Below, piece after piece: positions 12,702-25,826 of a DNA stretch of 64,000 nucleotides (positions are counted from its first letter, which is position 1; the number at the start of each line of letters is the position of its first letter). A program made the position numbers and the translations under genes. The stretch comes from Burkholderia anthina. GTDB taxonomy: Bacteria > Pseudomonadota > Gammaproteobacteria > Burkholderiales > Burkholderiaceae. The stretch lies in the NCBI RefSeq assembly GCF_001547525.1, contig NZ_LNJP01000003.1:62001-126000 (forward strand), read 5' to 3'. The notes beneath the pieces are model-generated. The model ran no database searches and was not told the origin of the DNA. It saw nothing but the letters and a program-made list of their open reading frames with translations.

Positions 12702-14327
12702 TCAGATCACGTTGAAGTGGTGCGTGCCGTCCCGCTTCAACTGGTCGACCAGCCCGTATTCCCAGTCGAGATACGCCTGCATCGCCGCGGCCGCGTTGTC
12801 GGTGCCTTCGTACGGGCGCCGATAGCGGTCGATGCGCGGCGACGCAAGACGGGTCTCGCCGCTCTCCAGCGGCAGCCCGGCGTCGATCCACGCGGCCGTG
12901 CCGCCGGTCAGCACGCGGATCTCGGCCGACGCCGGCAACAGCGCGCGGGCGTCATCCGCCGCGAACCGCGCGAGCAGGCTCGATCCGCACGTGAACACGT
13001 ACCGCTTCGCGGGCGGAATCGCGGCCAGCGCGTCGCGCAACTGCGCACGCACGGCAAACCACGCGCCCGGCACATGACGCTTCACGTAGTTCGCGCTGGC
13101 CGTCACGTCGACGATCGCGAGCTCGCCGGGCGCGGCCTCCTTCAGCCAGCCGGCGAGCGTCGCGGGCGACACGTCGGCAGCGGGCGGCGCCGCGGGCACG
13201 TCGCGCGGCGGCTGGCCGCGCTCGACGAATGCCGCGGCGCCGGCCGGCTCGACCACGCGCACGTCCCAGCCCATCTGCGCGAGCCACGACGCGGTCATGT
13301 CCGCGCGCACGCCGTCGTCGTCGGCCAGCACGATCCGCGCGCCGCGCACGGCCGCATGATGGTCGGTCTCCTGCACGAGCTGGCCGCCCGGCGTGCTCAG
13401 GAAGCCCGGCAGGTGGCCGGCTTCGTATTCCTCCGGCGTGCGCACGTCGAAGCGGTACAGCGTGCGGCCCGGTTCGGCGAGCGCGGCGACGTCGGCCAGC
13501 GCGATACGCGGCACGCCGGCGCGCTCGGCCACCGCGCGGGCGGCCCGACGCGCTTCGGCGCGCTGCGTCGCGTCGATCTCGTCCGGAAAGCGCCGTGCGG
13601 CGCCGCGCTCGAGCGTCTGGCCGGCCAGCGTCCAGCCGATCGTGCCGTTGCGCAGCGCGGCGACGGGATTCGGCAGCCCCGCGTTGACGAGCGACTGCGT
13701 GCCGATGATGCTGCGCGTGCGGCCCGCGCAGTTGACGATCACCTGCGTGCGCGGGTCCGGCGCCAGCGCGCGCACGCGCAGCACGAGTTCCGCGCCCGGC
13801 ACGCTGGTCGACGTCGGGATGTTCATCGTCTGGTATTCGTCGAAGCGGCGCGCGTCGACGATCACGACATCGGCTTTCGCGTCGATCAGCGCCTGCACCT
13901 CCTGCGCGGACAGCGACGGCGTATGACGCTCGGCCTCGACCCATTCGCCGAACGACTTGCTCGGCACGTTCACGTCGATGAACAGTTCGCCGCCCGCGGC
14001 AACCCAGCCGGCGAGGCCGCCGTCGAGCAGCCGCACGTCGGTGTAGCCGAGCCGCGCGAGCGTCGCGGCCGCGCGCGGCGCGAGATCCTCGCCGCCCGCT
14101 TCGCCGAACACGACGATCGGCGTGTCGCGGCGCGGAATCCGCGTCCACGCGTCGAGTTCGAGCTTCGACAACGGAAAATTGGCGGCCCACAGCGGATGGC
14201 CCTGCGCGTACGGATCTTCCTCGCGTACGTCGATCAGCGCGATCTCGTCGCGGGCAAGCAGGCGCGCGCGTACGTCCTGGTACGACGCGACGGGAAAGCG
14301 GGAAAGGGAATCTGCGGAGTGCGTCAC
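12702..14327 (-). CDS. Four-domain rhodanese-type sulfurtransferase
   Basis: A 541-aa protein made of four rhodanese-like modules. Domain 2 keeps a catalytic Cys200 in the loop CAGRTRS, and domain 4 has Cys447 in TCGSSLLAR. The corresponding loops of domain 1 (FGEAGGED) and domain 3 (LADDDG) lack Cys and are probably structural. It would transfer sulfane sulfur to an acceptor such as glutathione or sulfite. It lies 118 bp downstream of a thiol dioxygenase gene on the same strand, suggesting joint handling of a small thiol. Four modules are more than the usual one or two. Confidence 0.9.
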   Translation of the reverse strand: MTHSADSLSRFPVASYQDVRARLLARDEIALIDVREEDPYAQGHPLWAANFPLSKLELDAWTRIPRRDTPIVVFGEAGGEDLAPRAAATLARLGYTDVRLLDGGLAGWVAAGGELFIDVNVPSKSFGEWVEAERHTPSLSAQEVQALIDAKADVVIVDARRFDEYQTMNIPTSTSVPGAELVLRVRALAPDPRTQVIVNCAGRTRSIIGTQSLVNAGLPNPVAALRNGTIGWTLAGQTLERGAARRFPDEIDATQRAEARRAARAVAERAGVPRIALADVAALAEPGRTLYRFDVRTPEEYEAGHLPGFLSTPGGQLVQETDHHAAVRGARIVLADDDGVRADMTASWLAQMGWDVRVVEPAGAAAFVERGQPPRDVPAAPPAADVSPATLAGWLKEAAPGELAIVDVTASANYVKRHVPGAWFAVRAQLRDALAAIPPAKRYVFTCGSSLLARFAADDARALLPASAEIRVLTGGTAAWIDAGLPLESGETRLASPRIDRYRRPYEGTDNAAAAMQAYLDWEYGLVDQLKRDGTHHFNVI

Positions 14328-14445: not shown

Positions 14446-15012
14446 TCAGGCATTCGAATAGCCCGACACGAACGACTTCACGGTACCGTCGTCCAGGTAC
14501 ACCGCGCGCTCGACCTTGCCGATGTTCGCGCCGTACACGTGGATGCTGATCGATACGCGGTCGGCAAATGCGTTGGTCACGCGGTGAACGTCGCCGATGC
14601 GCGGCGACACGGCCTCGACCTCGCCCGGCCGCAACCGCACGGCGTCGCCCGCGGGCACCGGCCTGCCGGCCGCGTCGAACCGGTACGGCTGCGAGAACTC
14701 GCCGCCGCGCAGCATCCCGATCAGCCCCCACACCGTGTGATCGTGGATCGGTGTCGCCTGGCCCGGCCCCCACACGAAGCTGACGACCGAGAAGCGCTCG
14801 TCCGGGTCCAGATGCAGCAGGTACTGCCGGTAACGCTCGGGATCGGGCTGCGCGAACGCGTCGGGCAACCAGTCGTCGTGCTCGACGAGCGCGGCGAGCA
14901 GCGCGCCGCCCTCGTCGAGAATGCGCGCCTCGTTCGCGCCGGACGCGAGCAGCGCATCCAGACCATCGACGAACGGACGCAGCGGCGTCTGTTGCAACGA
15001 AAGCGTACTCAT
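14446..15012 (-). CDS. Cysteine dioxygenase-family thiol dioxygenase (possibly 3-mercaptopropionate dioxygenase)
   Basis: A 188-aa cupin-fold iron enzyme. The HxH iron ligands are in PIHDHTVWG and the third His is in GDVHRVTN, the standard cysteine dioxygenase arrangement. Such enzymes add O2 to a small thiol to give a sulfinate; bacterial members act on L-cysteine or 3-mercaptopropionate. The start at 15012 has AGGAG well placed upstream. A LysR-type gene starts 75 bp away in the opposite direction, and a multi-domain rhodanese follows. The exact substrate cannot be fixed by eye. Confidence 0.88.
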   Translation of the reverse strand: MSTLSLQQTPLRPFVDGLDALLASGANEARILDEGGALLAALVEHDDWLPDAFAQPDPERYRQYLLHLDPDERFSVVSFVWGPGQATPIHDHTVWGLIGMLRGGEFSQPYRFDAAGRPVPAGDAVRLRPGEVEAVSPRIGDVHRVTNAFADRVSISIHVYGANIGKVERAVYLDDGTVKSFVSGYSNA

Positions 15013-15024
15013 CGGCCGTCTCCT

Positions 15025-15057
15025 CGAATATGATGCCGAATATGATGGATCGTCATG
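15025..15057. promoter_or_regulatory. Candidate LysR operator in the thiol dioxygenase / LysR spacer
   Basis: CGAATATGATG occurs at 15025-15035 and 15037-15047, a 12-bp direct repeat. It is followed by ATGATGGATCGTCATGAT, in which ATGA/TCAT arms form a dyad. The 74-bp spacer therefore carries compact repeat structure expected of a divergent LysR-controlled promoter. Confidence 0.5.
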
Positions 15058-15086
15058 ATGCACCCGAAAGACCATGCAGAACAAAC

Positions 15087-16004
15087 ATGAAAATTAGCGA
15101 TATCGACGCTTTTGCAGCGGTCGTCCGCTGCCAGACCCTGAGCCAGGCCGCGGCCGAGCTCGGGATGACGCAGCCCGCGATCACGCGGCGCGTCCAGAAT
15201 CTCGAGGAAACGCTCGGCGTGACGCTGCTCGACCGCAACACGAAGCCGCCGCGCCCGACCGACATCGGCCGGCAGGTGTTCGAGCAGTGTCGCGCGATCC
15301 TGCGCGAGGTCGACGCGCTGCGCGAACTGACGGCCGGCCAGCAGCCGCCCGCCGGTGAATTCAGGATCGGGCTCACGCAGGGCCTCGGCGAACTGATGCT
15401 GCCCGCGCTGATCGCGGATCTCGCCGCGCAGTGGCCCGCGCTCGCGACGCAGGTCACGACTGCATGGGGCGGCCTGCTCGTCGACCGCATCGCCCGCCGC
15501 GAACTCGATGCGGCGCTGGTCTTCCTCGCGCGCGAGATGGTGCTGCCGGCGCAGGTCGAGGGTGAACGCTTGCTGGCCACGCGGCTCGTCGCGGTCGGCC
15601 GCAAGGGCGACTGGCCGCGCCGCAGCTACCGGCTCGCCGATTGCCACGCGCGCGGCTGGGTGCTCAACCCGGACGGCTGCGGCTTTCGTGCGGGCCTGCG
15701 GCGCGCGCTCGACGCGCAGGGCCTGCCGATGCCGGTCACGCTCGATGCGTACGGCCGCGACCTGCAACTGCAGAGCGTCGCCAACGGCTTCGGCCTCGGG
15801 CTGATGCCGCTGCCGCTCGTCGAAGGCAGCCCGCTGCGCGACGCGCTCGATATCGTGCCGCTCGCCGATTTCAAGCCGCAGATCGATCTGTGGCTGCTGC
15901 GCCGGCACGATGCCGCGCGCCTCGACGCGCCGCTCGCGGCCGTCGCCGCGCGTGCGCGCACGGCGTTCGCGCTGCCCGAGCAATCGCACGACAAGGCCGC
16001 GTAA
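15087..16004 (+). CDS. LysR-family regulator divergent from the thiol dioxygenase
   Basis: A 305-aa LysR-type protein with a classic N-terminal HTH (VVRCQTLSQAAAELGMTQPAITRRVQNLEETLG, residues about 11-43) and an effector-binding domain. The start at 15087 aligns MKISDIDAF with the usual LysR N-terminus; Mets further upstream lack family support. The short divergent spacer and repeats at 15025-15057 indicate that it controls the dioxygenase/rhodanese pair and itself. Its effector is likely a sulfur compound, by inference. Confidence 0.9.
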   Translation: MKISDIDAFAAVVRCQTLSQAAAELGMTQPAITRRVQNLEETLGVTLLDRNTKPPRPTDIGRQVFEQCRAILREVDALRELTAGQQPPAGEFRIGLTQGLGELMLPALIADLAAQWPALATQVTTAWGGLLVDRIARRELDAALVFLAREMVLPAQVEGERLLATRLVAVGRKGDWPRRSYRLADCHARGWVLNPDGCGFRAGLRRALDAQGLPMPVTLDAYGRDLQLQSVANGFGLGLMPLPLVEGSPLRDALDIVPLADFKPQIDLWLLRRHDAARLDAPLAAVAARARTAFALPEQSHDKAA

Positions 16005-16074: not shown

Positions 16075-17433
16075 TCACGCATCGCGTCGACCGCGTTCGA
16101 TCCCGTTGCGTGACGTCGCGTCCGCCCCTGCATTCGTCTGCCCGCGCGTTGCCGCGTCGAGCACCGCCCGCCCCGCCGCCACCGCGATCGCATCGTCCTG
16201 CGGTGTATGCACGCGGCTGCACAGCACGTCGCGATAGTGGCGTTCGAGCGGATTGCCGCGGCTCAGCCCGTGATTGCCCGACAGCTTCAGCGCCTGCTCG
16301 ACCGTCCGGATCGCGTGCTCGGTCACGGTGCGCTTGACGAGGCCGCTGGTCGTCACCGACGGCGCGTTGCCGGCGTCGGTGCGCGCGATGTGATCGTCGA
16401 GCAGCACACGGTTCGCGTGCAGCCAGCCTTCGATTTCGCCGACCGCCTCCTGCACGCGCGGCAGCGTCGCGAGCGGGGCGCCGAGCCCGCTCGGCGCACG
16501 CGTCGTCGCGAATTCGACGAGCCAGTCGCGCGACGCACGCGCCACCGCGTCGTACAGGCTGCCGAGCAGCACGACCATCCACGCCTGCTGGTCCGCCTGC
16601 GCGTCGGCATCCGCATGAGTGGCGGCCGATACGGCCCATGCGTCCGGCGCGCGCACGTCCACTGCATGGTCGGCCGGCAGCGGCACGTCGTCGAACACGA
16701 CTTCGTGGCTGCCGGACGCACGCAGGCCGAGGTGATTCCAGCTTTCGATCACGCGGATGCGATCGCCGTCCACCGCGGGGTCGCGCGGCACGAGAAACAC
16801 GCCGACGCGCGGCGCCGGTTCGTCGGTGCGCGCCCACACGGCCAGCCAGCGCAGCGCCGGAATCCCGGTGCTGTAGAGCTTGTGGCCCGACAGCCGCCAG
16901 CCGTCGCCATCGCGGCGCGCGAGGGTCGCCGGCAGCCCGCCGCGCGACGGCGAGCCGAGCGCCGGCTCGACGCGCAGCGCGTTGATCAGCGCGCCGTGCG
17001 CGACCGCGCTGTCGAACACCGCGCGCCGGACCTGCGCGGGCCAGCGGTTGTCGGCGCGGCCGAGCGCGCGGTGCTGCAGATACGTCATCGTCAGCACCAG
17101 CGCGGTTGCCGGATCGGCCCGCGCGACGGCCGCGACGATCCGGCTCGCCCGCGCCAGCGTCGCCCCGGCGCCGCCATGCTCGCGCGGCACGACCTGCGCG
17201 ATCAGCCCGGCACGATGCAGTCGCGCGAAGTTCTCGTGCGGAAAACGGCCCTCGACGTCGTTGCGGGCCGCATCGGCGGCGAGTTCGGGGGCGAGACGCT
17301 CGAGCAGCGCGGCGAGGCGCGCGTCGTCCGTCTCGTCGATGGCGTCGGCGTGGGCGGGCTTGGCGGCGTCCGCGGGCAGCAGGCGCAGCGAGGGTTGCGG
17401 TGGCGGCGAGGAAACGGCAAGGCTGGCGGACAT
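16075..17433 (-). CDS. Acyl-CoA dehydrogenase-fold flavoprotein (SfnB/DszC type)
   Basis: A 452-aa protein with the acyl-CoA dehydrogenase fold: an N-terminal helical domain (LAPELAADAARNDVEGRFPHENFARLHRAGL), a central beta-domain (GWRLSGHKLYSTGIPA, NHLGLRASGSHEVVFDDV) and a C-terminal helical bundle. It lacks the usual catalytic Glu context and resembles the SfnB/DszC branch, FMNH2-dependent or sulfur-scavenging enzymes. Start 17433 has GGGA upstream; a longer reading to 17532 lacks family residues. It is divergent from a sulfonate monooxygenase operon, which supports a role in organosulfur use. Substrate unknown. Confidence 0.85.
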   Translation of the reverse strand: MSASLAVSSPPPQPSLRLLPADAAKPAHADAIDETDDARLAALLERLAPELAADAARNDVEGRFPHENFARLHRAGLIAQVVPREHGGAGATLARASRIVAAVARADPATALVLTMTYLQHRALGRADNRWPAQVRRAVFDSAVAHGALINALRVEPALGSPSRGGLPATLARRDGDGWRLSGHKLYSTGIPALRWLAVWARTDEPAPRVGVFLVPRDPAVDGDRIRVIESWNHLGLRASGSHEVVFDDVPLPADHAVDVRAPDAWAVSAATHADADAQADQQAWMVVLLGSLYDAVARASRDWLVEFATTRAPSGLGAPLATLPRVQEAVGEIEGWLHANRVLLDDHIARTDAGNAPSVTTSGLVKRTVTEHAIRTVEQALKLSGNHGLSRGNPLERHYRDVLCSRVHTPQDDAIAVAAGRAVLDAATRGQTNAGADATSRNGIERGRRDA

Positions 17434-17693
17434 CGAAACGGATTCCCTGGGTAGGTCGAACACGGCGGCGGAACGACGAAAACGGCGGGTGCAAACAGCA
17501 GGCGAAAACAGCGCCAACGCGCGCCCGATCATTCACGAGCCCACAGCGTATTCGCAACCCATACGGCCCCAAACCATGCAAATCTGATATTCAAATCGGG
17601 ATTGATTATTTCCATTCCGCATGATCCCGGCGTTAACCTGCGCTCCATTCCTGCCCGGCCGTGCGCCGGGACATCCCTGCACCGGAGACCCAG
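17434..17693. promoter_or_regulatory. Divergent control region of the sulfur-scavenging genes
   Basis: 260 bp between the SfnB-like gene and the SsuD-like operon. The segment 17575-17640 is AT-rich, with TTCAAATCGGGATTGATT, and is the likely promoter and activator site. In Burkholderia, CysB- or SsuR-type LysR proteins activate such promoters under sulfate limitation. Their presence here is inference; no perfect dyad was found. Confidence 0.4.
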
Positions 17694-18779
17694 ATGAGCG
17701 TCGAATTCATCGGCATGATCCAGAGCCAGAAGCAGTCGGAAATCCACCCGGCGTCCGGCCCCGTGGTCGATCCCGACTATGTGCGCGACTTTGCCCGCGC
17801 CCATGAAACCGCCGGTTTCGACCGGATTCTCGTGCCGCATCACTCGACCGGCCCGTCGGCGACGCTGACGATCGCGTTCGCGGCGGCCGCGACCGAGCGC
17901 ATCCATTTCATGCTCGCGCATCGCCCCGGCTTCACCGCGCCGACGCTCGCCGCGCGGCAGATCGCGACGCTCGACCAGTTCAGCCGCGGCCGGCTCGCCG
18001 TGCACTTCATCTCCGGCGGCTCGGACAGCGAGCAGCAGCGCGACGGCGATTTCCTCGATCACGACGCGCGCTATGCACGCACCGACGAATACCTGGGCAT
18101 CCTGCGGCGAATCTGGACGGAAGCGCAGCCGTTCGATCACGACGGCGCGCATTACCGGTTCAAGCAGGGTTTCTCGGAAGTGAAGCCGTTCCAGCAGCCG
18201 CACGTGCCGATCTACTTCGGCGGCGCGTCGGAAGCCGCGCTCGCGGTGGCCGGCAAGCACGCGGACGTGTACGCGCTGTGGGGCGAATCGCTCGACCAGG
18301 TGCGCGACCTGACGACGCGCGTGCGCGCCGAAGCCGCGAAACACGGCCGCCAGGTGCGCTTCTCCGTATCCTTCCGCCCGATCCTCGCGGCGACCGAGGA
18401 CGAAGCGTGGGCGCGTGCGCACCGCATCCTCGACGAAACGCGCCGGCTGCGCGAAGCGGCCGGGCTCGGCGCCGGCGGCCCGCAGCAGAGCGAAGGCGCA
18501 CGCCGCCTGCTCGCCGCGGCCGAGCGCGGCTCACGCGTCGACAAGCGGCTGTGGACCGAGATCGCGAAGCTCACCGGCGCGCGCTCGAACTCGACGGCGC
18601 TCGTCGGCACGCCCGAACAGGTCGCCGACGCGCTGCTCGACTACTACGACCTCGGCGTGACGACGTTCCTGATCCGCGGCTTCGACCCGCTGGAAGACGC
18701 GATCGACTACGGCCGTGAACTGATTCCGCGTGTGCGCGGCGCCGTCGCCGCACGCGACGCGGCACGCCGCGCCGCCTGA
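17694..18779 (+). CDS. LLM-class FMNH2-dependent monooxygenase (SsuD-like)
   Basis: A 361-aa bacterial-luciferase-like monooxygenase resembling alkanesulfonate monooxygenase. Supporting stretches are MSVEFIGMI at the N-terminus, ISGGSDSEQQRDGD, YARTDEYLGILRRIW, and PIYFGGASEAALAVAGKHADVYALWGE. SsuD-type enzymes use FMNH2 and O2 to cleave the C-S bond of an alkanesulfonate, giving an aldehyde and sulfite. The start at 17694 has GGAG six nt upstream. It leads an operon with a class II aldolase and a sulfonate-type ABC transporter. No flavin reductase is present, so FMNH2 must come from elsewhere. The sulfonate substrate is unknown. Confidence 0.9.
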   Translation: MSVEFIGMIQSQKQSEIHPASGPVVDPDYVRDFARAHETAGFDRILVPHHSTGPSATLTIAFAAAATERIHFMLAHRPGFTAPTLAARQIATLDQFSRGRLAVHFISGGSDSEQQRDGDFLDHDARYARTDEYLGILRRIWTEAQPFDHDGAHYRFKQGFSEVKPFQQPHVPIYFGGASEAALAVAGKHADVYALWGESLDQVRDLTTRVRAEAAKHGRQVRFSVSFRPILAATEDEAWARAHRILDETRRLREAAGLGAGGPQQSEGARRLLAAAERGSRVDKRLWTEIAKLTGARSNSTALVGTPEQVADALLDYYDLGVTTFLIRGFDPLEDAIDYGRELIPRVRGAVAARDAARRAA

Positions 18780-18811
18780 GCCAACGGAGCCCAACGGAGC
18801 CATACGCGATC

Positions 18812-19651
18812 ATGTCCGCCGTCCTGTCCTCGCCCCACCGTACCGCATCGGGCCTCGTGCTCGCCGACACCCCGCGCCAGCACTTCTGGTTCGATCCGCC
18901 CGCGCCGCGCCTCGACGTCGCCGCCGAGCGTCGCCACCGGCAGGAGCGGCTCGCGGCCGCGTTCCGCCTGTTCGCGCGCTTCGGCTTCGCGGCGGGCCTC
19001 GCGGGCCACATCACCGCGCGCGATCCGGAGCTGCCCGATCATTTCTGGGTGAACCCGCTCGGCGTACATTTCTCGCAGATCAAGGTCTCCGACCTGCTGC
19101 TCGTCAACGCACGCGGCGAAACCGCGATCGGCCAGCGGCCGCTGAACAAGGCCGCGTTCGCGATCCATGCGGCGATCCACGAAGCCCATCCGCACGTGGT
19201 CGCCGCCGCGCACACGCATTCGACCTACGGCAAGGCATGGTCGACGCTCGGCCGCCCGCTCGATCCGCTCACGCAGGACGCGTGCGTGTTCTACGAGGAT
19301 CACGCGCTGTTCGACGATTTCACCGGGATGGTCGTCGACACCAGCGAAGGCGCGCGGATCGCCGATGCGCTCGCGAAGCCGGACGGCACCACGCACAAGG
19401 GCGTGATCCTGAAGAATCACGGGATCCTGACGGCCGGCCCGACGGTCGAGGCCGCCGCGTGGTGGTACATCGCGCTCGACAACGTCGCGCACACGCAGTT
19501 GCTGGCCGAAGCGGCCGGCACGCCGCGGCCGATCGATCACGCCACCGCGCGCCATACGCACGGCCAGATCGGCGGCCCCGACGGCGCGCTGCATGCGTTC
19601 GACAGCCTGTTCGCACGCGTCGTCGCCGACGAACCCGACCTGCTCGATTAG
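18812..19651 (+). CDS. Class II aldolase/adducin-family protein
   Basis: A 279-aa class II aldolase-fold protein. The zinc-binding His pair is in AAHTHSTYGKAWSTLGRPLDP and a third conserved His is in ILKNHGILTAG, typical of fuculose/ribulose-phosphate aldolases and epimerases. The N-terminus (LFARFGFAAGLAGHITARDP) matches the family. It lies 32 bp after the SsuD-like gene and 48 bp before an ABC binding protein. Its place suggests processing of the carbonyl product left after desulfonation, but that is inference; a decarboxylase or epimerase role is also possible. Confidence 0.87.
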   Translation: MSAVLSSPHRTASGLVLADTPRQHFWFDPPAPRLDVAAERRHRQERLAAAFRLFARFGFAAGLAGHITARDPELPDHFWVNPLGVHFSQIKVSDLLLVNARGETAIGQRPLNKAAFAIHAAIHEAHPHVVAAAHTHSTYGKAWSTLGRPLDPLTQDACVFYEDHALFDDFTGMVVDTSEGARIADALAKPDGTTHKGVILKNHGILTAGPTVEAAAWWYIALDNVAHTQLLAEAAGTPRPIDHATARHTHGQIGGPDGALHAFDSLFARVVADEPDLLD

Positions 19652-19699
19652 GGCCTGTTCACGCCAATAACGGACTTGCGCCACACCGGAGACCAGACC

Positions 19700-20734
19700 A
19701 TGACCCGAACCACCGCACCCACGCCCGCCGACGCGCACGACGACCAACGCCGCCGGCTGCTGCGCGCGGCCGGCGCCGCCGCGCTCGCCGTGCCGGCGAT
19801 CACGCTCGGCCGCCACGCGTGGTCGGCGCCGCCGCTGAAGAAGCTCACGTTCGCGTGGAACCAGAACGCGTTCTGCCTGACGCCGATCGTCGTCGCGCAG
19901 GAGCGCGGCTTCTTCGAGAAGAACGGGCTGCAGGTCGAGCTGATCAACTACAGCGGCTCGACCGATCAACTGCTCGAATCGATCGCGACCGGCAAGGCCG
20001 ACGCGGCGGTCGGGATGATCCACCGCTGGCTGAAGCCGCTCGAAGCCGGCTTCGACGTGAAGATCATCGGCAGCTCGCACGGCGGCTGCGTGCGGCTGCT
20101 CGGCGCGAAGGCGGCCGGCGTCACGACGCTGCAAGCGCTGAAGGGCAAGACGGTCGGCGTCAGCGATCTGGCCGCGCCCGGCAAGCACTTCTTCTCGATC
20201 CTGCTCGCGAAGAACGGCGTCGATCCCGAGCGCGACATCACGTGGCGGCAGTATCCGGCCGACCTGCTCGGCGTCGCGGTCGACAAGGGCGAGATCCACG
20301 CGATCGCCGACGGCGACCCGAACCTCTACCTGCTCGAAAAGCGCAGCAACGGCGCGTATACCGAACTCGCGACCAACCTGTCCGGCGAATACGCGCGCAA
20401 GGTGTGCTGCGTGATCGGCGCGCGCGGCGACCTCGTGCGCAACGACCGGCCGACGGCCGCCGCGCTCGCGCGCTCGATCGTGCAGGCCACCGAGTACACG
20501 CACGACAACCCGAACGAAGCCGCGAAGGTGTTCGCGAAGTATTCGCCGAAGATCAGCCCCGAGGATCTGCGCAAGCTGTACGCGACGCTCACCTACACGC
20601 ACCACCCGACCAACGTCGACCTGCAACAGGAAATCGCGTTCTATGCGGACGATTTCCGCCGCATCAGCGTGCTGAAGAAGAGCACGGACCCGCAGCGCTT
20701 CGCGCAGCAGGTCTATGCGAACGTACTGGGGTAA
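19700..20734 (+). CDS. ABC transporter substrate-binding protein (sulfonate/nitrate/taurine type), Tat-exported
   Basis: A 344-aa SsuA/TauA-type periplasmic binding protein. A twin-arginine signal is visible (DDQRRRLLRAAGAAALAVPAITLG). The mature part has typical motifs: LTPIVVAQERGFFEKNGLQVELINY, IATGKADAAVG, and GKTVGVSDL. Start 19700 has GGAG upstream, the same leader style as the first operon gene. It should capture an organosulfur ligand for the permease and ATPase that follow. It is 4 bp from the permease start. Confidence 0.9.
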   Translation: MTRTTAPTPADAHDDQRRRLLRAAGAAALAVPAITLGRHAWSAPPLKKLTFAWNQNAFCLTPIVVAQERGFFEKNGLQVELINYSGSTDQLLESIATGKADAAVGMIHRWLKPLEAGFDVKIIGSSHGGCVRLLGAKAAGVTTLQALKGKTVGVSDLAAPGKHFFSILLAKNGVDPERDITWRQYPADLLGVAVDKGEIHAIADGDPNLYLLEKRSNGAYTELATNLSGEYARKVCCVIGARGDLVRNDRPTAAALARSIVQATEYTHDNPNEAAKVFAKYSPKISPEDLRKLYATLTYTHHPTNVDLQQEIAFYADDFRRISVLKKSTDPQRFAQQVYANVLG

Positions 20735-20738
20735 CGCG

Positions 20739-21833
20739 ATGTCGACGATCGAACATGCGTCCGCCGCACGCGCCGCATCGGCCCCGGCCGGCGCCGCCAA
20801 CGCCAATGCTTCCGCGCGAGCGGCCTGCACGACCTGCGACGCCGCGCTGACCGCGGAAGCGCGGCGCGCGCGCACCTGGCCGACCGGCATCGCCGCCGCA
20901 TTCGCGTGGGCCGCGCTCGGCGCGCTGACGCACCTGTGGCCGAACCGGATCGTCGGCTTCAGCGACTGGGCGTACACCGACACGTTCGGCACGGCCGCGT
21001 GGACGATCGCCGCGCTGCTGCTCGTCGCCGCGACGCTCGGCCATCGCGTTCCCGCGACCCGCACGCGGCTCGCACACGTGCGCCCGGCCGGCCCGTGGCT
21101 CGTCGCGCTGCCGCTCGTGCTCGCCGCGTGGGAAATCGTCACCGCCAAAACCGGCTGGCTGCCGACGCCGTTCTTCGCGCCGCCGCAGGCCCTGATCGAG
21201 GTCTACGTCGACGACTGGCCGCGCCTCGCCGGCAGCGCCGGCAACACGCTGAAGCTGCTCGCGCTCGGCTTCGCGTATGGCGTCACGGTCGGCTTCGCGG
21301 TGGGCGTGTCGATCGGCTGGTCGCGCCGGATCGGCTACTGGGTGCATCCGGTGCTGCGCGTGCTCGGGCCCGTGCCGGCCACCGCGCTGCTGCCGCTCAC
21401 GTTCTACTTCTTCCCGTCGAGCTATTCGGCCGCCGCGTTCCTGATCGCGCTTGCAACCGGCTTCCCGGTCGCCGTGCTGACGTGGTCGGGCGTCGCGAGC
21501 GTGAACAAGCAGTACTACGACGTCGCGCGCACGCTCGGCGCGAACGCGCGCTTCCTCGTGCTGCGCGTCGCGATTCCGGCCGCGCTGCCGCACGTATTCG
21601 TCGGCATCTTCATGGGGCTGAGCGCGTCGTTCACGGTGCTGGTCGTCGCCGAGATGATGGGCGTCAAGTCGGGGCTCGGCTGGTATTTGAGCTGGGCGCA
21701 GGGCTGGGCGTCGTACGTGAACATGTATGCGGCGCTGATCGTGATGGCGCTGCTGTTTTCCGGGTTGATCGCGCTGCTGTTCGCGGTGCGCGACCGCGTG
21801 CTCGCCTGGCAGAAAGGAACCGTCAAATGGTAA
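20739..21833 (+). CDS. ABC transporter permease (SsuC/TauC type)
   Basis: A 364-aa inner-membrane permease. After an unusually long Ala-rich N-terminus come two hydrophobic helices, then the BPD_transp_1 domain with its coupling loop (YDVARTLGANARFLVLRVAIPAALPHVFVG, the EAA motif). The N-terminal extension (about 110 residues with two extra helices before WEIVTAKTG) makes it about 100 residues longer than a typical SsuC. Its stop overlaps the ATPase start. It pairs with the binding protein upstream and ATPase downstream in one importer. Confidence 0.9.
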   Translation: MSTIEHASAARAASAPAGAANANASARAACTTCDAALTAEARRARTWPTGIAAAFAWAALGALTHLWPNRIVGFSDWAYTDTFGTAAWTIAALLLVAATLGHRVPATRTRLAHVRPAGPWLVALPLVLAAWEIVTAKTGWLPTPFFAPPQALIEVYVDDWPRLAGSAGNTLKLLALGFAYGVTVGFAVGVSIGWSRRIGYWVHPVLRVLGPVPATALLPLTFYFFPSSYSAAAFLIALATGFPVAVLTWSGVASVNKQYYDVARTLGANARFLVLRVAIPAALPHVFVGIFMGLSASFTVLVVAEMMGVKSGLGWYLSWAQGWASYVNMYAALIVMALLFSGLIALLFAVRDRVLAWQKGTVKW

Positions 21834-22648
21834 GCGCCGCCGTACTCGAACCGTCCGCCGCCACTGCTGCGGCGCCCGCCGTCGCGCCGCCGCGCGGCGC
21901 ACGCATCGACATCCGCGGCGTGAGCCATGCGTTCGACGGCCCCGGCGGCGCGCTGCCGGTGCTCGACGACGTGTCGCTGTCGGTCGCGGCCGGCGAATTC
22001 GTCGCGCTGCTCGGCCCGAGCGGCTGCGGGAAATCGACGCTGCTGCGCCTCGTCGCGGGGCTCGACGCCGCGCGGCAAGGCGGAATCGCGCAGGACGGCG
22101 TGCCGATCGAGCGCCCCGATCCGTCGCGCATCGTCGTGTTCCAGGACCCGACGCTGTACCCGTGGCGGCGCGTGCGCGCGAACGTCGCGCTCGGCCTCGA
22201 AGCGCGCGGCGTGGCACGCACCGCGCAGCATCGCGTCGACGATGCGCTCGCGCGCGTCGGGCTGGAGGACTTCGCGAACGTGTTTCCGCATCAGTTGTCC
22301 GGCGGGATGGCGCAGCGCGTCGCGCTCGCCCGCGCACTCGTCAACGATCCGCGCCTGCTGATTCTCGACGAACCGCTCGGCAAGCTCGATTCGCTGACGC
22401 GGCTCACGATGCAGGCCGAGCTGACCGCGCTGTGGCAACGCGACGGTTTCTCCGCGCTGCTCGTCACGCACGACGTGGAAGAAGCGCTGTTTCTCGCGCA
22501 GCGCGTGATCGTGTTCGGGCCGCGCCCGGCACGGATCGTCGCCGAACTACGCGTCGACCTGCCCTACCCGCGCCATCGCGGCGACCCGCGCCTCGCCGAA
22601 TTGCGCCACGACGCGCTGCGGCATCTCGGGCTCGATGCGAGCTGGTAG
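21827..22648 (+). CDS. ABC transporter ATP-binding protein (SsuB/TauB type)
   Basis: A 273-aa ATPase. Walker A is GPSGCGKST, the signature is LSGGMAQRVALARAL, Walker B is LLILDEP, and the switch His is in LLVTHDVEEAL. Start ATG 21827 overlaps the permease stop by 7 bp and has AAAGGAA upstream, so translation is probably coupled. It powers the organosulfur importer. The N-terminus carries about 20 Ala/Pro-rich residues before the fold begins. Confidence 0.93.
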   Translation: MVSAAVLEPSAATAAAPAVAPPRGARIDIRGVSHAFDGPGGALPVLDDVSLSVAAGEFVALLGPSGCGKSTLLRLVAGLDAARQGGIAQDGVPIERPDPSRIVVFQDPTLYPWRRVRANVALGLEARGVARTAQHRVDDALARVGLEDFANVFPHQLSGGMAQRVALARALVNDPRLLILDEPLGKLDSLTRLTMQAELTALWQRDGFSALLVTHDVEEALFLAQRVIVFGPRPARIVAELRVDLPYPRHRGDPRLAELRHDALRHLGLDASW

Positions 22649-22698
22649 ATGCCGGGCGCCGTTCGACGTTCGAATGCGGTCCGCCGGAGGCGCGCGCG

Positions 22699-23880
22699 AT
22701 GAACGCGCCGCCGTTCGCCGACTGGGCCATCGCGTTCCTGCAACTGCTGTATCGCGCGCAAATCGCGTTGGCGCATGGGTTGCACGCGATCGGCCTGACC
22801 GGCGACGCCGACGGCCAGGCCGCGTGGCCGTGGGCACACCGCATCGCGCTTGAAACGCTGCGCATCGACGCGGGGCTCACGCGGCAACTCGCGTTCGCGT
22901 GTACGTTGACGGCGCTGGCCGTCGGGCTCACCTGCGCCGCGCTGGCTTCGCGCAAGTGGCGTGTCGCGACGGCCATCGCCGCGCTGGCCGTCGCGTGGTT
23001 CGCGCCGTGGCCGCCCGCTTCGCTGTGGCTCGCGCCCGCCGTGCCGACTAGCTTCCAGCGCGACCCCACGCCGTTTTCCGTGTCGAACGTGATGCGCGGC
23101 GCGCACCTGTATGCGCAACATTGCGCGGCCTGCCACGGCGCGGACGGGCGCGGCGAAGGCCCGCTCGCGGCCACGCTCGCGCACTGGCCGCCGACCTTCG
23201 CCGGCGCGCTGCTCGCGCGTCGGCTCGACGGCGAACTGTTCTGGCGCGTGCGCCACGGCACGCGGGACGAGCACGGTGCGTCGACGATGCCCGGCTTCGC
23301 GGCGACGCTCGGCCCGCAGGACACATGGGCCGTGCTCGATTACCTGAAAGCGCTGGCCGCGGGCAGCGGCGCGCAGGCGGAAGGCGCGTGGCCGGTGCCC
23401 GTCCCGCTGCCGGCGCTCGACGTGCGGTGCGGCGACGCCGCGCCCCAGGCGCTCGAGCGCTGGCGCGACGGCCAGCGCGTGCGCGTCGTCGCGCTCGCGG
23501 CCGGCGCGACGCCACCGCAGGAAGACGCGCGCTGGCAAACCTTGCTCGTTACCGAACGCGGCGCGCCCGTGCCGCCGTCAGCCGGCCCGCGCGCGAACTG
23601 CGTCGCGACGACCGCCGATGCGTGGCTCGCGTTCGCGACGATCGCCGGCGTCGCGCCCGATGCGCTCGGCGGCACGCAACTGCTCGCCGATCGGCGCGGC
23701 TGGCTGCGGGCGCGCGCATTGCCGGGCAGCGCCGGCTGGTCGGATGCCGACCTGCTGTGCCGCTCGGACGCGGTGGCCCGCCCGGCCGCGCGCGCCACGA
23801 GCGGCGACGCACTGACCGCGCTGCTGCTGCGCGTCGACCAGGAACCCGTGCGCGACGTACAGGCCGGGCTTCCGCATTGA
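22699..23880 (+). CDS. Membrane-anchored cytochrome c with an unassigned C-terminal domain
   Basis: A 393-aa protein. Two hydrophobic helices (AFACTLTALAVGLTCAAL and VATAIAALAVAWFAPW) precede a class I cytochrome c domain with the haem motif CAACH near residue 143 and a distal Met in TMPGF. The last 150 residues contain several Cys (DVRCGD, RANCVATT, LLCRSD) and match no domain I recognise. Start 22699 has a GGAGG upstream. It sits 50 bp after the ATPase and 32 bp before a second binding protein, so it is part of the sulfonate operon. A membrane cytochrome is unexpected there; it may pass electrons from periplasmic oxidation to the respiratory chain. Confidence 0.8.
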   Translation: MNAPPFADWAIAFLQLLYRAQIALAHGLHAIGLTGDADGQAAWPWAHRIALETLRIDAGLTRQLAFACTLTALAVGLTCAALASRKWRVATAIAALAVAWFAPWPPASLWLAPAVPTSFQRDPTPFSVSNVMRGAHLYAQHCAACHGADGRGEGPLAATLAHWPPTFAGALLARRLDGELFWRVRHGTRDEHGASTMPGFAATLGPQDTWAVLDYLKALAAGSGAQAEGAWPVPVPLPALDVRCGDAAPQALERWRDGQRVRVVALAAGATPPQEDARWQTLLVTERGAPVPPSAGPRANCVATTADAWLAFATIAGVAPDALGGTQLLADRRGWLRARALPGSAGWSDADLLCRSDAVARPAARATSGDALTALLLRVDQEPVRDVQAGLPH

Positions 23881-23912
23881 ATCCCTGAACCTTTCTTGAA
23901 CCGAACTTCACG

Positions 23913-24866
23913 ATGAATCCGACCCGACGCCATTTCCTCGCGCAGGCGAGCGCCCTTGCCACGATCGCCGCCGCCCCGGCCGCCGTGCGCGCGCAGTCGG
24001 GCACCCGCCCGCTGCTGCGCGCCGGCGACCAGAAAGGCGGGCTGCGCGCGCTGCTCGAAGCGGCCGGCGAACTGAACGGCCTCGCGTACGACATCGCGTG
24101 GACCGAATTCCCGGCCGCCGCGCCGCTCGCGGAAGCGCTGAACGCGGCCGCCGTCGACTGCGGGCCGATCGGCGACGCGCCGGTGATCTTCGCGCTCGCC
24201 TCGGGCGCCCGCATCAAGGTGATCGGCGCGAACCGTTCCGATCCATACGGCACGGCCGTGCTCGTGCAACCCGACGCCGCGCTGAAAGGCGCGGCCGACC
24301 TGAAAGGCAAGCGCATCGGCACGACGCGCGGCTCGATCGGCCATTTCGTCACGCTGAAGGCGCTCGATGCGGCCGGCCTGCCGCCCGATGCGGTGTCGTT
24401 CCGCTTCCTGCCGCCGGCCGACACGATGCTGGCGCTCGCCACCGGTTCGATCGACGCGTGGGCCACCTGGGAGCCCTACACCGCGCTCGCCGAAACGAGC
24501 GGCCGCGCGCGCGTGCTGGTCAACGGCCGCGGGCTGTGGTCGGGCCTCAGCTATCTCGCGGCGACCGACGCGGCGATCGCCTCGAAGCGCGACGTGCTGC
24601 ACGATTTCCTGCGGCGCGTCGTGCGCGCGCAGGCCTGGTCGTACCGGCACGCCGACGCGTATTCGGCGGCGCTCGCGCGCATCATCGGCATTCCGCCGGC
24701 CGCCGCGAAGCTGCAGTTCGAGCGCCGCGGCACGCGCTGGCAGCCGATCGACGCGACGGTGATCGCCGAGCAGCAGCGCACGGCCGACTTCTACCTGAAG
24801 GCCGGGCTGCTGCGCCAGCCGCTCGACGTGCGCACGACCTTCGACACCGGCTTCCCGCTCGCCTGA
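23913..24866 (+). CDS. Second ABC substrate-binding protein (SsuA-like), Tat signal
   Basis: A 317-aa periplasmic binding protein of the aliphatic sulfonate type. The signal contains the twin-arginine motif TRRHFLAQA. Typical motifs follow: LRAGDQKGGLRALLEAAGEL, WTEFPAAAPLAEALNAAAVD, KGKRIGTTRGSIGHF, WATWEPYTAL. It ends the operon and has no permease of its own, so it may widen the ligand range of the importer encoded upstream. It is clearly different from the first binding protein in length and sequence. Confidence 0.9.
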   Translation: MNPTRRHFLAQASALATIAAAPAAVRAQSGTRPLLRAGDQKGGLRALLEAAGELNGLAYDIAWTEFPAAAPLAEALNAAAVDCGPIGDAPVIFALASGARIKVIGANRSDPYGTAVLVQPDAALKGAADLKGKRIGTTRGSIGHFVTLKALDAAGLPPDAVSFRFLPPADTMLALATGSIDAWATWEPYTALAETSGRARVLVNGRGLWSGLSYLAATDAAIASKRDVLHDFLRRVVRAQAWSYRHADAYSAALARIIGIPPAAAKLQFERRGTRWQPIDATVIAEQQRTADFYLKAGLLRQPLDVRTTFDTGFPLA

Positions 24867-24959: not shown

Positions 24960-25826
24960 ATGCCAGCCATCGCCGAACTCTTCGTCTACCCGATCAAATC
25001 CTGCGCCGGCATCGCGCTGTCGCGCGCGCAACTGCTCGAAACGGGCCTCGCGTACGACCGTCACTGGCTGATCACCGATCCGCACGGGCAGATGCTCACG
25101 CAGCGCACGCACCCGCGCCTCGCGCTGATCCGCCCGACGCTCGACCGCGATGCGCTCGTGCTGAACGCGCCGGGCATGCCGGAGATCCGCACGCCGCTCG
25201 ACGGCGACGCGACGCCGGCCACGCCGAAGATGGCCGCGACGGTGTGGCGCGACACCGTCGAAGCGATCGACACGGGCGCCGAAACGGCCGCGTGGCTCAC
25301 CGCATTTCTCGGCGCGCCGACGAAGCTCGCGCGCTTCGGCCCCGACGCACGCCGCGGCTGCAACCGCAAATGGACCGGCGACATCGATACGCATACGCAG
25401 TTCGCGGACGGTTATCCGCTGCTGGTGATCGGCCAGTCGTCGCTAGACGACCTGAACGCGCGGCTTGCCGCGAAGGGCGCGCCGGCGATCCCGATGAACC
25501 GCTTCCGGCCGAACATCGTCGTGTCGGATCTCGATGCGTACGAAGAAGATTTCGTCGAGCATCTCGACGCCGGCGGCGACACGCCGGTGCGGCTGCGGCT
25601 CGTCAAGCTGTGCACGCGCTGCCCGGTGCCGACGATCGACCAGGCCACCGGCACGCCGGACCCGGCATGGCCGCACGAGCCGACCGACACGATGCAGACC
25701 TATCGCGCGAACCCGAACTACGACGGCGCGCTGACGTTCGGCATCAATGCGATCGTCGTCGAAGGCGCCGGCGCGTGGCTCGAAGTCGGGCAGCCGGTCG
25801 AAGCGGAGATCGGGTTCGGCGATTGA
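24960..25826 (+). CDS. MOSC-domain protein with N-terminal beta-barrel (YcbX-like)
   Basis: A 288-aa MOSC protein. The N-terminal beta-barrel domain is seen in AELFVYPIKSCAGIALSRAQL and TGLAYDRHWLITDPHGQMLTQRTHPRL. The C-terminal MOSC domain includes RFRPNIVV, the conserved Cys in KLCTRCPVPTID, and FGINAIV. Such proteins bind molybdenum cofactor via a conserved Cys and take part in N-hydroxylated base reduction or related oxidoreductase chains. There is no ferredoxin domain, unlike full-length YcbX. It follows the sulfonate operon by 93 bp and is probably transcribed separately. Confidence 0.9.
   Translation: MPAIAELFVYPIKSCAGIALSRAQLLETGLAYDRHWLITDPHGQMLTQRTHPRLALIRPTLDRDALVLNAPGMPEIRTPLDGDATPATPKMAATVWRDTVEAIDTGAETAAWLTAFLGAPTKLARFGPDARRGCNRKWTGDIDTHTQFADGYPLLVIGQSSLDDLNARLAAKGAPAIPMNRFRPNIVVSDLDAYEEDFVEHLDAGGDTPVRLRLVKLCTRCPVPTIDQATGTPDPAWPHEPTDTMQTYRANPNYDGALTFGINAIVVEGAGAWLEVGQPVEAEIGFGD

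Follow-up and report, generated by a model that had tools for sequence, protein, structure and literature searches.

The window analyzed here is a stretch of 64,000 nucleotides of Burkholderia anthina DNA (contig NZ_LNJP01000003.1, positions 62,001 to 126,000) taken from a genome of 7.27 Mb in four contigs, and our subject is a seven-gene operon within it, at positions 17694 to 24866, together with the genes that lie upstream on the opposite strand. An earlier note on this DNA had described an operon with a monooxygenase, an importer, an aldolase-fold protein, a cytochrome c and a second binding protein, and all of these were found when the open reading frames were assigned to families with Pfam and NCBIfam; the seven genes are all on the + strand. 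The same note had placed the operon in a sulfur-scavenging region of 12.7-24.9 kb, and the genes that it named there are present: upstream, the minus strand encodes an SfnB-like enzyme, a thiol dioxygenase and a rhodanese of four domains, a LysR gene lies among them, and this divergent arm is conserved together with the sulfur-related operon. The features are, in order of position:

12702..14327, - strand: four-domain rhodanese-like sulfurtransferase (PF00581, 4 stretches; GTG start at 14327)
14446..15084, - strand: Gln-type thiol dioxygenase, 3-mercaptopropionate dioxygenase-like (identity to 4qma and to the P. aeruginosa enzyme)
15087..16004, + strand: LysR-type regulator (NCBIfam LysR models, each under its cut-off, for a piece one codon shorter)
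16075..17532, - strand: SfnB-like flavoenzyme of the acyl-CoA-dehydrogenase fold (PF08028/PF02770/PF02771)
17533..17693, no strand: divergent intergenic region (block conserved in Burkholderia at about 17570-17612)
17694..18779, + strand: luciferase-like monooxygenase (LLM) of the type that uses reduced flavin mononucleotide, FMNH2 (PF00296; clade separate from SsuD/MsuD/SfnG)
18812..19651, + strand: class II aldolase-fold protein, NovR/TqaM-like (PRK06208; NovR identity)
19700..20734, + strand: ATP-binding cassette (ABC) substrate-binding protein 1, NMT1/THI5-like, with an RR-containing signal (PF09084)
20739..21833, + strand: ABC permease with an N-terminal extension (PF00528)
21827..22648, + strand: ABC ATPase (PF00005)
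22699..23880, + strand: membrane cytochrome c with a CAACH haem-c site and a predicted thioredoxin-like C-terminal domain (PF13442/PF00034; AlphaFold2)
23913..24866, + strand: ABC substrate-binding protein 2, SsuA family, with an RR signal (TIGR01728)

A scan with the aldolase-fold protein gave 80 loci, from which 13 shorter than 20.5 kb were excluded, leaving 67 full-length loci to be counted; because all 80 were chosen through the aldolase, they are uninformative on how frequently the LLM occurs without it. All ten genes (the seven of the operon plus the SfnB-like, dioxygenase and rhodanese genes) were present at the identity thresholds in 58 of the 67 loci, and in 57 of those 58 their order and orientation were identical. 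By group, the ten genes were found in Burkholderia (24/24), Pandoraea (11/11), Variovorax (11/15), Ralstonia (7/8), Xenophilus (3/3), Cupriavidus (1/5) and another member of the Comamonadaceae (1/1). The rhodanese was present in 62 of the 67 relatives, and the aldolase gene stood in unrelated surroundings in four loci (L054, L056, L065 and L066). The cluster proteins of the window share about 92-98% identity with their counterparts in Burkholderia sp. MS389. The ten-gene cluster is therefore no oddity of one strain and no chance grouping, and a lack of conservation beyond this strain, which the earlier note had named as a ground for abandoning its proposal, is not what the relatives show.

The earlier note took the SsuD-like appearance of the monooxygenase as a sign of sulfonate chemistry, which comparison with the models and the active site does not support. 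The LLM scored 239.3 bits against the SsuD models, below both cut-offs (518.2 for TIGR03565 and 510 for NF001939), and 162.6 against the SfnG model TIGR04021, whose cut-off is 382.95 and against which the genome's own SfnG scored 576. In a quick tree, for which the program warned of long branches, 40 cluster LLMs formed one clade outside the SsuD, MsuD and SfnG rows, on a branch of 1.53 with a value of 99 in the Shimodaira-Hasegawa-like approximate likelihood ratio test. The active-site alignment comprised 105 clade members, 82 close and 23 distant, which are mutually non-independent. The position of SsuD Arg226 is Ser and that of His228 is Arg in all 105; the Arg297 position is never Arg in 104 members (63 Thr, 33 Ile, 5 Val and 3 Leu), and the Tyr331 position is Phe in 104/104. 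All four residues are retained in the genome's own SsuD, in E. coli SsuD and in MsuD. The published sulfonate-binding motif joins a Trp and an Arg of the barrel to an Arg and an Ala or Ser of the RGGA loop, and its Arg/Arg part is lost in the clade. In the excerpted text of PMC8234197, the sulfonate contacts of MsuD are Trp195, Arg225 and the Arg296/Ser299 loop, and with the variants R225A, R296A and W195A sulfite was not measurable. The same genome encodes a second member of the LLM clade (C4:552832-553914; L002, L134) at 58% identity. An SsuA-like binding protein gene precedes it, whereas its neighborhood gave no match to a dioxygenase, a rhodanese or an aldolase-fold gene.

The description of the importer as SsuABC-like applies to part of it. 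Binding protein 2 passes the SsuA family model TIGR01728 (211.5, cut-off 163.5) and matches the SsuA structure 2x26 with an E value of 4.7e-42, whereas binding protein 1 (82.8 against the same 163.5), the permease (82.3 against the SsuC cut-off of 347) and the ATPase remain under their cut-offs; for the ATPase, SsuB and TauB were the best NCBIfam models, both under cut-off, with 231.8 for SsuB against 395. Both binding proteins begin with an RR-containing signal, read from the sequence as RRRLL and RRHFL. The cluster shares with the ssuEADCB and msuEDC systems an LLM-class FMNH2-type monooxygenase, an SsuABC-like importer and an SsuA-family binding protein, while differing from them in a monooxygenase that is under the SsuD cut-offs and without the Arg/Arg motif, in an operon without a reductase, and in the added aldolase-fold protein, cytochrome c and dioxygenase/rhodanese arm. 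This likeness could be read as a methanesulfonate-like route in reverse order, in which the dioxygenase would oxidize an imported thiol to the sulfinate, the SfnB-like enzyme would act like MsuC and yield the sulfonate, and the LLM would release an aldehyde and sulfite. It would place the same types of enzyme in series as MsuC (sulfinate to sulfonate) and MsuD (sulfonate to sulfite) as given in the portion of PMC8234197 available, and it draws on the linkage of the LLM, SfnB-like and dioxygenase genes and on the SsuA-like binding protein 2. We consider it unlikely, however, since it needs an LLM that cleaves sulfonates, and Arg226 and Arg297, whose counterparts are essential in MsuD (R225A, R296A), are lost in every ungapped member.

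The thiol dioxygenase shares 70.0% identity with 4qma and 64.8% with the 3-mercaptopropionate dioxygenase of P. aeruginosa, and is much closer to this type than to cysteine dioxygenase. Gln62, His89/91/142, Ser155-His157-Tyr159 and Arg168 are retained in 82/82 ungapped rows; we take Gln62 to stand in place of the Arg of cysteine dioxygenase, the three His to be iron ligands and the Ser-His-Tyr residues to form the triad. By its sequence the enzyme is Gln-type and 3-mercaptopropionate-like, and its gene is the only one of this kind in the genome. For its start, an inner ATG at 15012 fits the length of the relatives better, and for the SfnB-like gene the relatives point to an inner start near 17436. 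A specific name for the SfnB-like enzyme was tried and given up, as neither the SfnB model TIGR04022 (99.8, cut-off 430.9) nor the 3-sulfinopropanoyl-CoA desulfinase model NF042439 (103.1, cut-off 600) was passed; its best solved relatives, 5z8t and 5gj7, are labelled merely as acyl-CoA dehydrogenase type 2 domain protein. The rhodanese contains two Cys, at 200 and 447.

A dioxygenase of the 3-mercaptopropionate type, next to a flavoenzyme with about equal scores for the desulfinase and SfnB models, would also suit a carbon-catabolic pathway for 3-mercaptopropionate or 3,3'-dithiodipropionate of the Advenella/Variovorax type. The cluster of Advenella mimigardefordensis (Mdo, Acd and a coenzyme A (CoA) transferase) has the same type of thiol dioxygenase and an adjoining enzyme of the acyl-CoA-dehydrogenase fold; however, it carries a CoA transferase, binding proteins of the tripartite tricarboxylate transporter (TTT) type and methylcitrate genes, where our cluster has an ABC importer, an LLM and a rhodanese. 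The genes read between 12.7 and 24.9 kb include no CoA transferase, both models were far under cut-off, and the Advenella and Diaphorobacter clusters have a CoA transferase and a desulfinase next to the dioxygenase. We have therefore rejected the Advenella-type pathway, which we regard as very improbable for this locus.

To examine the linkage of the two arms beyond close relatives we used a phylum-wide sample of 398 genomes, with E <= 1e-100 for the LLM clade and E <= 1e-40 for the dioxygenase. The LLM clade was present in 24 genomes and the dioxygenase in 23; both occurred in 16, against 1.4 expected if they were independent. A distance of 5 kb or less separates the two in 12 of the 24 LLM genomes, and at 13 of the 29 places where the LLM was found. 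True SsuD served as the control: with this genome's own protein as the query, it was found in 68 of the 398 genomes at 84 places. At none of the 84 does a listed dioxygenase come within 5 kb, and at one, in genome G389, the distance is 24 kb. At L141:14802-15325, a dioxygenase-like match split over two reading frames is flanked by the cluster LLM and an SsuD-type gene. The 25 LLM regions that were fetched contain an SsuA-like binding protein (20), an SfnB-like gene (15), a rhodanese (14), a dioxygenase (12), an importer of this type (10), an aldolase-fold protein (4) and a cytochrome (4). The core of the system is thus the LLM, the SfnB-like enzyme, the dioxygenase, the rhodanese and the binding proteins. 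With only 4 of the 25 regions each, the aldolase-fold protein and the cytochrome stand outside this core, as additions found mainly in the Burkholderiales. We count the divergent arm as part of the system, since the neighborhood of the LLM clade and the 3-mercaptopropionate-type dioxygenase extends across the phylum.

Individual loci show the core in several arrangements. A single strand of Paraburkholderia sprentiae WSM5005 carries, one after another, genes for the LLM, an aldolase-fold protein, the dioxygenase, the rhodanese, a binding protein and an acyl-CoA dehydrogenase-like protein, and a flavin reductase gene comes about 3.6 kb later. In Sphingobium the dioxygenase and a sulfurtransferase are flanked by an SsuB-like ATPase and an LLM; a Klebsiella record has rhodanese, dioxygenase, LysR, LLM, SfnB-like, binding protein and importer genes; and in locus L135 the LLM is followed directly by the dioxygenase and rhodanese. 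On an Acinetobacter plasmid the LLM, binding protein, dioxygenase and rhodanese genes adjoin genes of a MetQ/MetI/MetN-type methionine transporter. The LysR gene is found in the Burkholderia loci and also beside the dioxygenase in Klebsiella and Pseudomonas-type loci. For P. aeruginosa, the excerpts at hand name PA2602 as 3-mercaptopropionate dioxygenase and PA2603 as sulfurtransferase (PMC12947264), PA2600, two tags off, as a putative flavin-dependent oxidoreductase (PMC4731081), and PA2594 as enriched with the sulfate-starvation response (PMC7760384), so that by these tags a dioxygenase adjoins a sulfurtransferase here too. A further article, PMC6851120, was rejected as a source on PA2600, its PA2600-like names being those of patient isolates. 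Two Pseudomonadaceae-like loci, L128 and L139, have the order rhodanese-dioxygenase-LysR-LLM-binding protein, and no cytochrome c was found in them. Going by the locus tags, PA2594-PA2603 may share the full order of the cluster. Within open-licence PubMed Central (PMC) we found no paper on the cluster as a unit.

The second gene of the operon had been called a class II aldolase, and the fold is confirmed: the protein passes PRK06208 (442.6, cut-off 255). The retro-aldol reaction on a hydroxylated sulfonate that had been attached to it fares less well, as the best-scoring solved relative is NovR (9ryg), with 47.7% identity over 256 positions; 4xxf, a structure deposited under the name fuculose-1-phosphate aldolase, is similarly close with 50% over 220 positions, so that an aldol reaction retains some probability. 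TqaM is 38.8% identical. The excerpts of PMC13111500 and PMC12192607 describe NovR/CloR as enzymes with an iron site of three His, where a 2-oxo acid is oxidatively decarboxylated twice, and TqaM as a non-haem iron oxidative decarboxylase. The metal His 134/136/203 are retained in 85/85 ungapped relatives as well as in NovR and TqaM. The aldolase-fold protein thus shares with CloR/NovR and TqaM an identity of 48% and 39% over the aligned parts and the three His ligands, while the known members serve antibiotic or peptaibol biosynthesis and this one sits in a sulfur cluster. These relationships favor a putative iron oxygenase rather than an aldolase. We take the catalytic glutamate of fuculose aldolase to be Glu73 of FucA, and the presumed equivalent position is Ala or Gly in 85/85 ungapped relatives, in an alignment that has FucA itself outside it. 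The missing Glu was dropped as proof against aldol chemistry, since it is likewise missing from two further proteins of this fold encoded in the genome (L160 and L161 are outside this comparison). In two Pseudomonas-like clusters (L123:8036-8830 and L124:10333-11199) another aldolase-fold protein, with 31-32% identity, lies between the LLM and LysR genes, as if a distant relative had taken its place.

In the proposal of the earlier note, an SsuD-type enzyme would desulfonate a hydroxylated or sugar-like sulfonate, and the class II aldolase would cleave the carbonyl compound that results. The LLM gene does stand beside genes for an SsuABC-like importer and a protein of the aldolase fold, and the 4xxf match fits such a view; with the sulfonate motif lost and NovR as the best-scoring solved relative, a sulfonate operon with an ordinary aldolase is weakened to the point where we think it quite unlikely. 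The Ala or Gly at the Glu73 position is a poor discriminator here.

The sixth gene encodes the cytochrome c, for which a periplasmic redox step had been proposed. The AlphaFold2 models (pLDDT, the predicted local distance difference test, 85.6 and 79.3) have N-terminal hydrophobic helices at 58-83 and 88-100 and a CAACH haem-c domain at about 117-225. The fold look-up for the whole protein mainly covered 117-225, so the C-terminal part was predicted alone, and residues of about 229-355 gave a thioredoxin-like fold (Foldseek/VIA-align). This predicted domain, of the Sco/TlpA/ResA kind, is in keeping with a possible periplasmic redox step. It differs from Sco, TlpA and ResA in being fused to a membrane-anchored monohaem cytochrome c and in lacking a CXXC, which was absent from residues 229-393; its invariant Cys 244, 301 and 354 are all outside any such motif.

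Our preferred reading, to which we give a probability of roughly 0.4, is that the operon forms half of a conserved cluster with two arms, which scavenges sulfur from an imported organosulfur acid, the LLM cutting the C-S bond and the dioxygenase oxidizing the thiol. The substrate is probably not an ordinary sulfonate: because the sulfonate motif is lost and the LLM is tied to a 3-mercaptopropionate-type dioxygenase, it is likely that the LLM acts on a non-sulfonate sulfur acid and passes on a thiol. From the gene content, conservation, linkage, active-site signatures and fold matches observed, we infer the substrate, the order of the steps and each reaction as follows. The ABC importer would bring in a small sulfur-carrying acid, with binding proteins 1 and 2 offering a choice of ligands. 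The LLM, using FMNH2 from a reductase encoded elsewhere, would carry out an oxygenative C-S cleavage to an aldehyde or keto product and a 3-mercaptopropionate-like thiol, which the dioxygenase would convert to the sulfinate. The SfnB-like flavoenzyme, likewise fed with flavin, may oxidize or desulfinate this sulfinate, and the sulfite would go to cysteine synthesis, while the rhodanese would handle sulfane sulfur. The aldolase-fold protein, as an iron oxygenase of the NovR/TqaM type, may catalyze the oxidative decarboxylation of a 2-hydroxy or 2-oxo acid before or after the C-S cleavage, and the cytochrome c with its thioredoxin-like domain may exchange electrons with periplasmic thiols or disulfides.

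Several observations weigh against this reading. SsuD Trp196 is retained in 104 of the 105 clade members, the nearest LLM relatives of known function are SsuD and MsuD, and Arg228 of the LLM might hold a sulfonate in another manner; the SsuA-like sequence of binding protein 2 favors a sulfonate ligand. The aldolase and cytochrome, rare in the phylum-wide regions, are not core. Genome G308 has a dioxygenase-like match, split over two reading frames, at distances of about 1.1 kb to an SsuD and 4.1 kb to the LLM; too weak for the list, it is an uncounted exception to the 0/84. In locus L090 the ssu operon is 5.0 kb from the dioxygenase. In 12 of the 24 LLM genomes there is no dioxygenase near the LLM. 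Conversely, among 7 records examined of the 40 listed (45 match the dioxygenase), a dioxygenase without the LLM occurs in Diaphorobacter, with a CoA transferase and 3-sulfinopropanoyl-CoA desulfinase, in Sodalis, as a dioxygenase-rhodanese pair with TTT transporter genes, and in Azospirillum and Bradyrhizobium, in other settings. The LLM genomes without a nearby dioxygenase, the Sodalis pair and the divergent transcription in this window would also be expected if the two arms served in sulfur starvation independently, with a regulator or no more than a neighborhood in common, the LLM operon acting on its own sulfonate, sulfone or sulfonate-like ligand. This we judge improbable, given that in Paraburkholderia the LLM, aldolase, dioxygenase and rhodanese genes apparently form an operon on one strand, that in L135 the LLM is followed by dioxygenase and rhodanese, and that the linkage is 12/24 against 0/84 for SsuD.

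A more specific form of the two-armed reading would place the oxygenases in series, although we think this version has little chance of being right in full. The NovR-type enzyme would shorten a methionine-type 2-hydroxy or 2-oxo acid (for example 2-hydroxy-4-methylthiobutyrate) to 3-methylthiopropionate, the LLM would demethylate it to 3-mercaptopropionate and formaldehyde, the dioxygenase would form 3-sulfinopropionate, and the SfnB-like enzyme would free sulfite. The Acinetobacter plasmid version beside the MetQ/MetI/MetN-type genes is cited with this methionine-type salvage.

In annotation pipelines the names given to such genes are alkanesulfonate monooxygenase, cysteine dioxygenase and class II aldolase. 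Should the two-armed reading be true, a widespread proteobacterial sulfur-scavenging system serves another class of compound, the 3-mercaptopropionate-type dioxygenase is tied to sulfur starvation and not to carbon catabolism, and a NovR-type enzyme is at work outside natural-product synthesis. The cluster also offers a testable setting for the role of such dioxygenases in the relatives of Pseudomonas and Burkholderia.

Along the operon the intergenic gaps are 32, 48, 4, -7, 50 and 32 bases; the short gaps of the earlier description stand, and of its overlapping starts only that of the permease and ATPase is left with the starts chosen here. As that description had said, no flavin reductase lies within the seven-gene operon. 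The best SsuE-like match of the genome, at C2:503445, scored 100.5 bits against a cut-off of 164 and adjoins a gene that passes the SfnG cut-off, so that at C2:502280-503957 (L004, L143) an SfnG gene and an SsuE-like flavin reductase stand side by side; this reductase is a possible flavin source for the monooxygenases of the window. Scans of the window with Rfam and for tRNAs gave no matches. In an alignment of 28 Burkholderia upstream regions, the block at 17570-17612 upstream of the LLM gene is nearly unchanged and is perhaps a regulator site; as a regulatory motif it was set aside, as no regulator could be linked to it. Directly downstream of the operon lies a gene at 24960-25826, matched by no NCBIfam model, whose product is presumably MOSC-domain-like; it is present in 23 of the 67 full-length loci.

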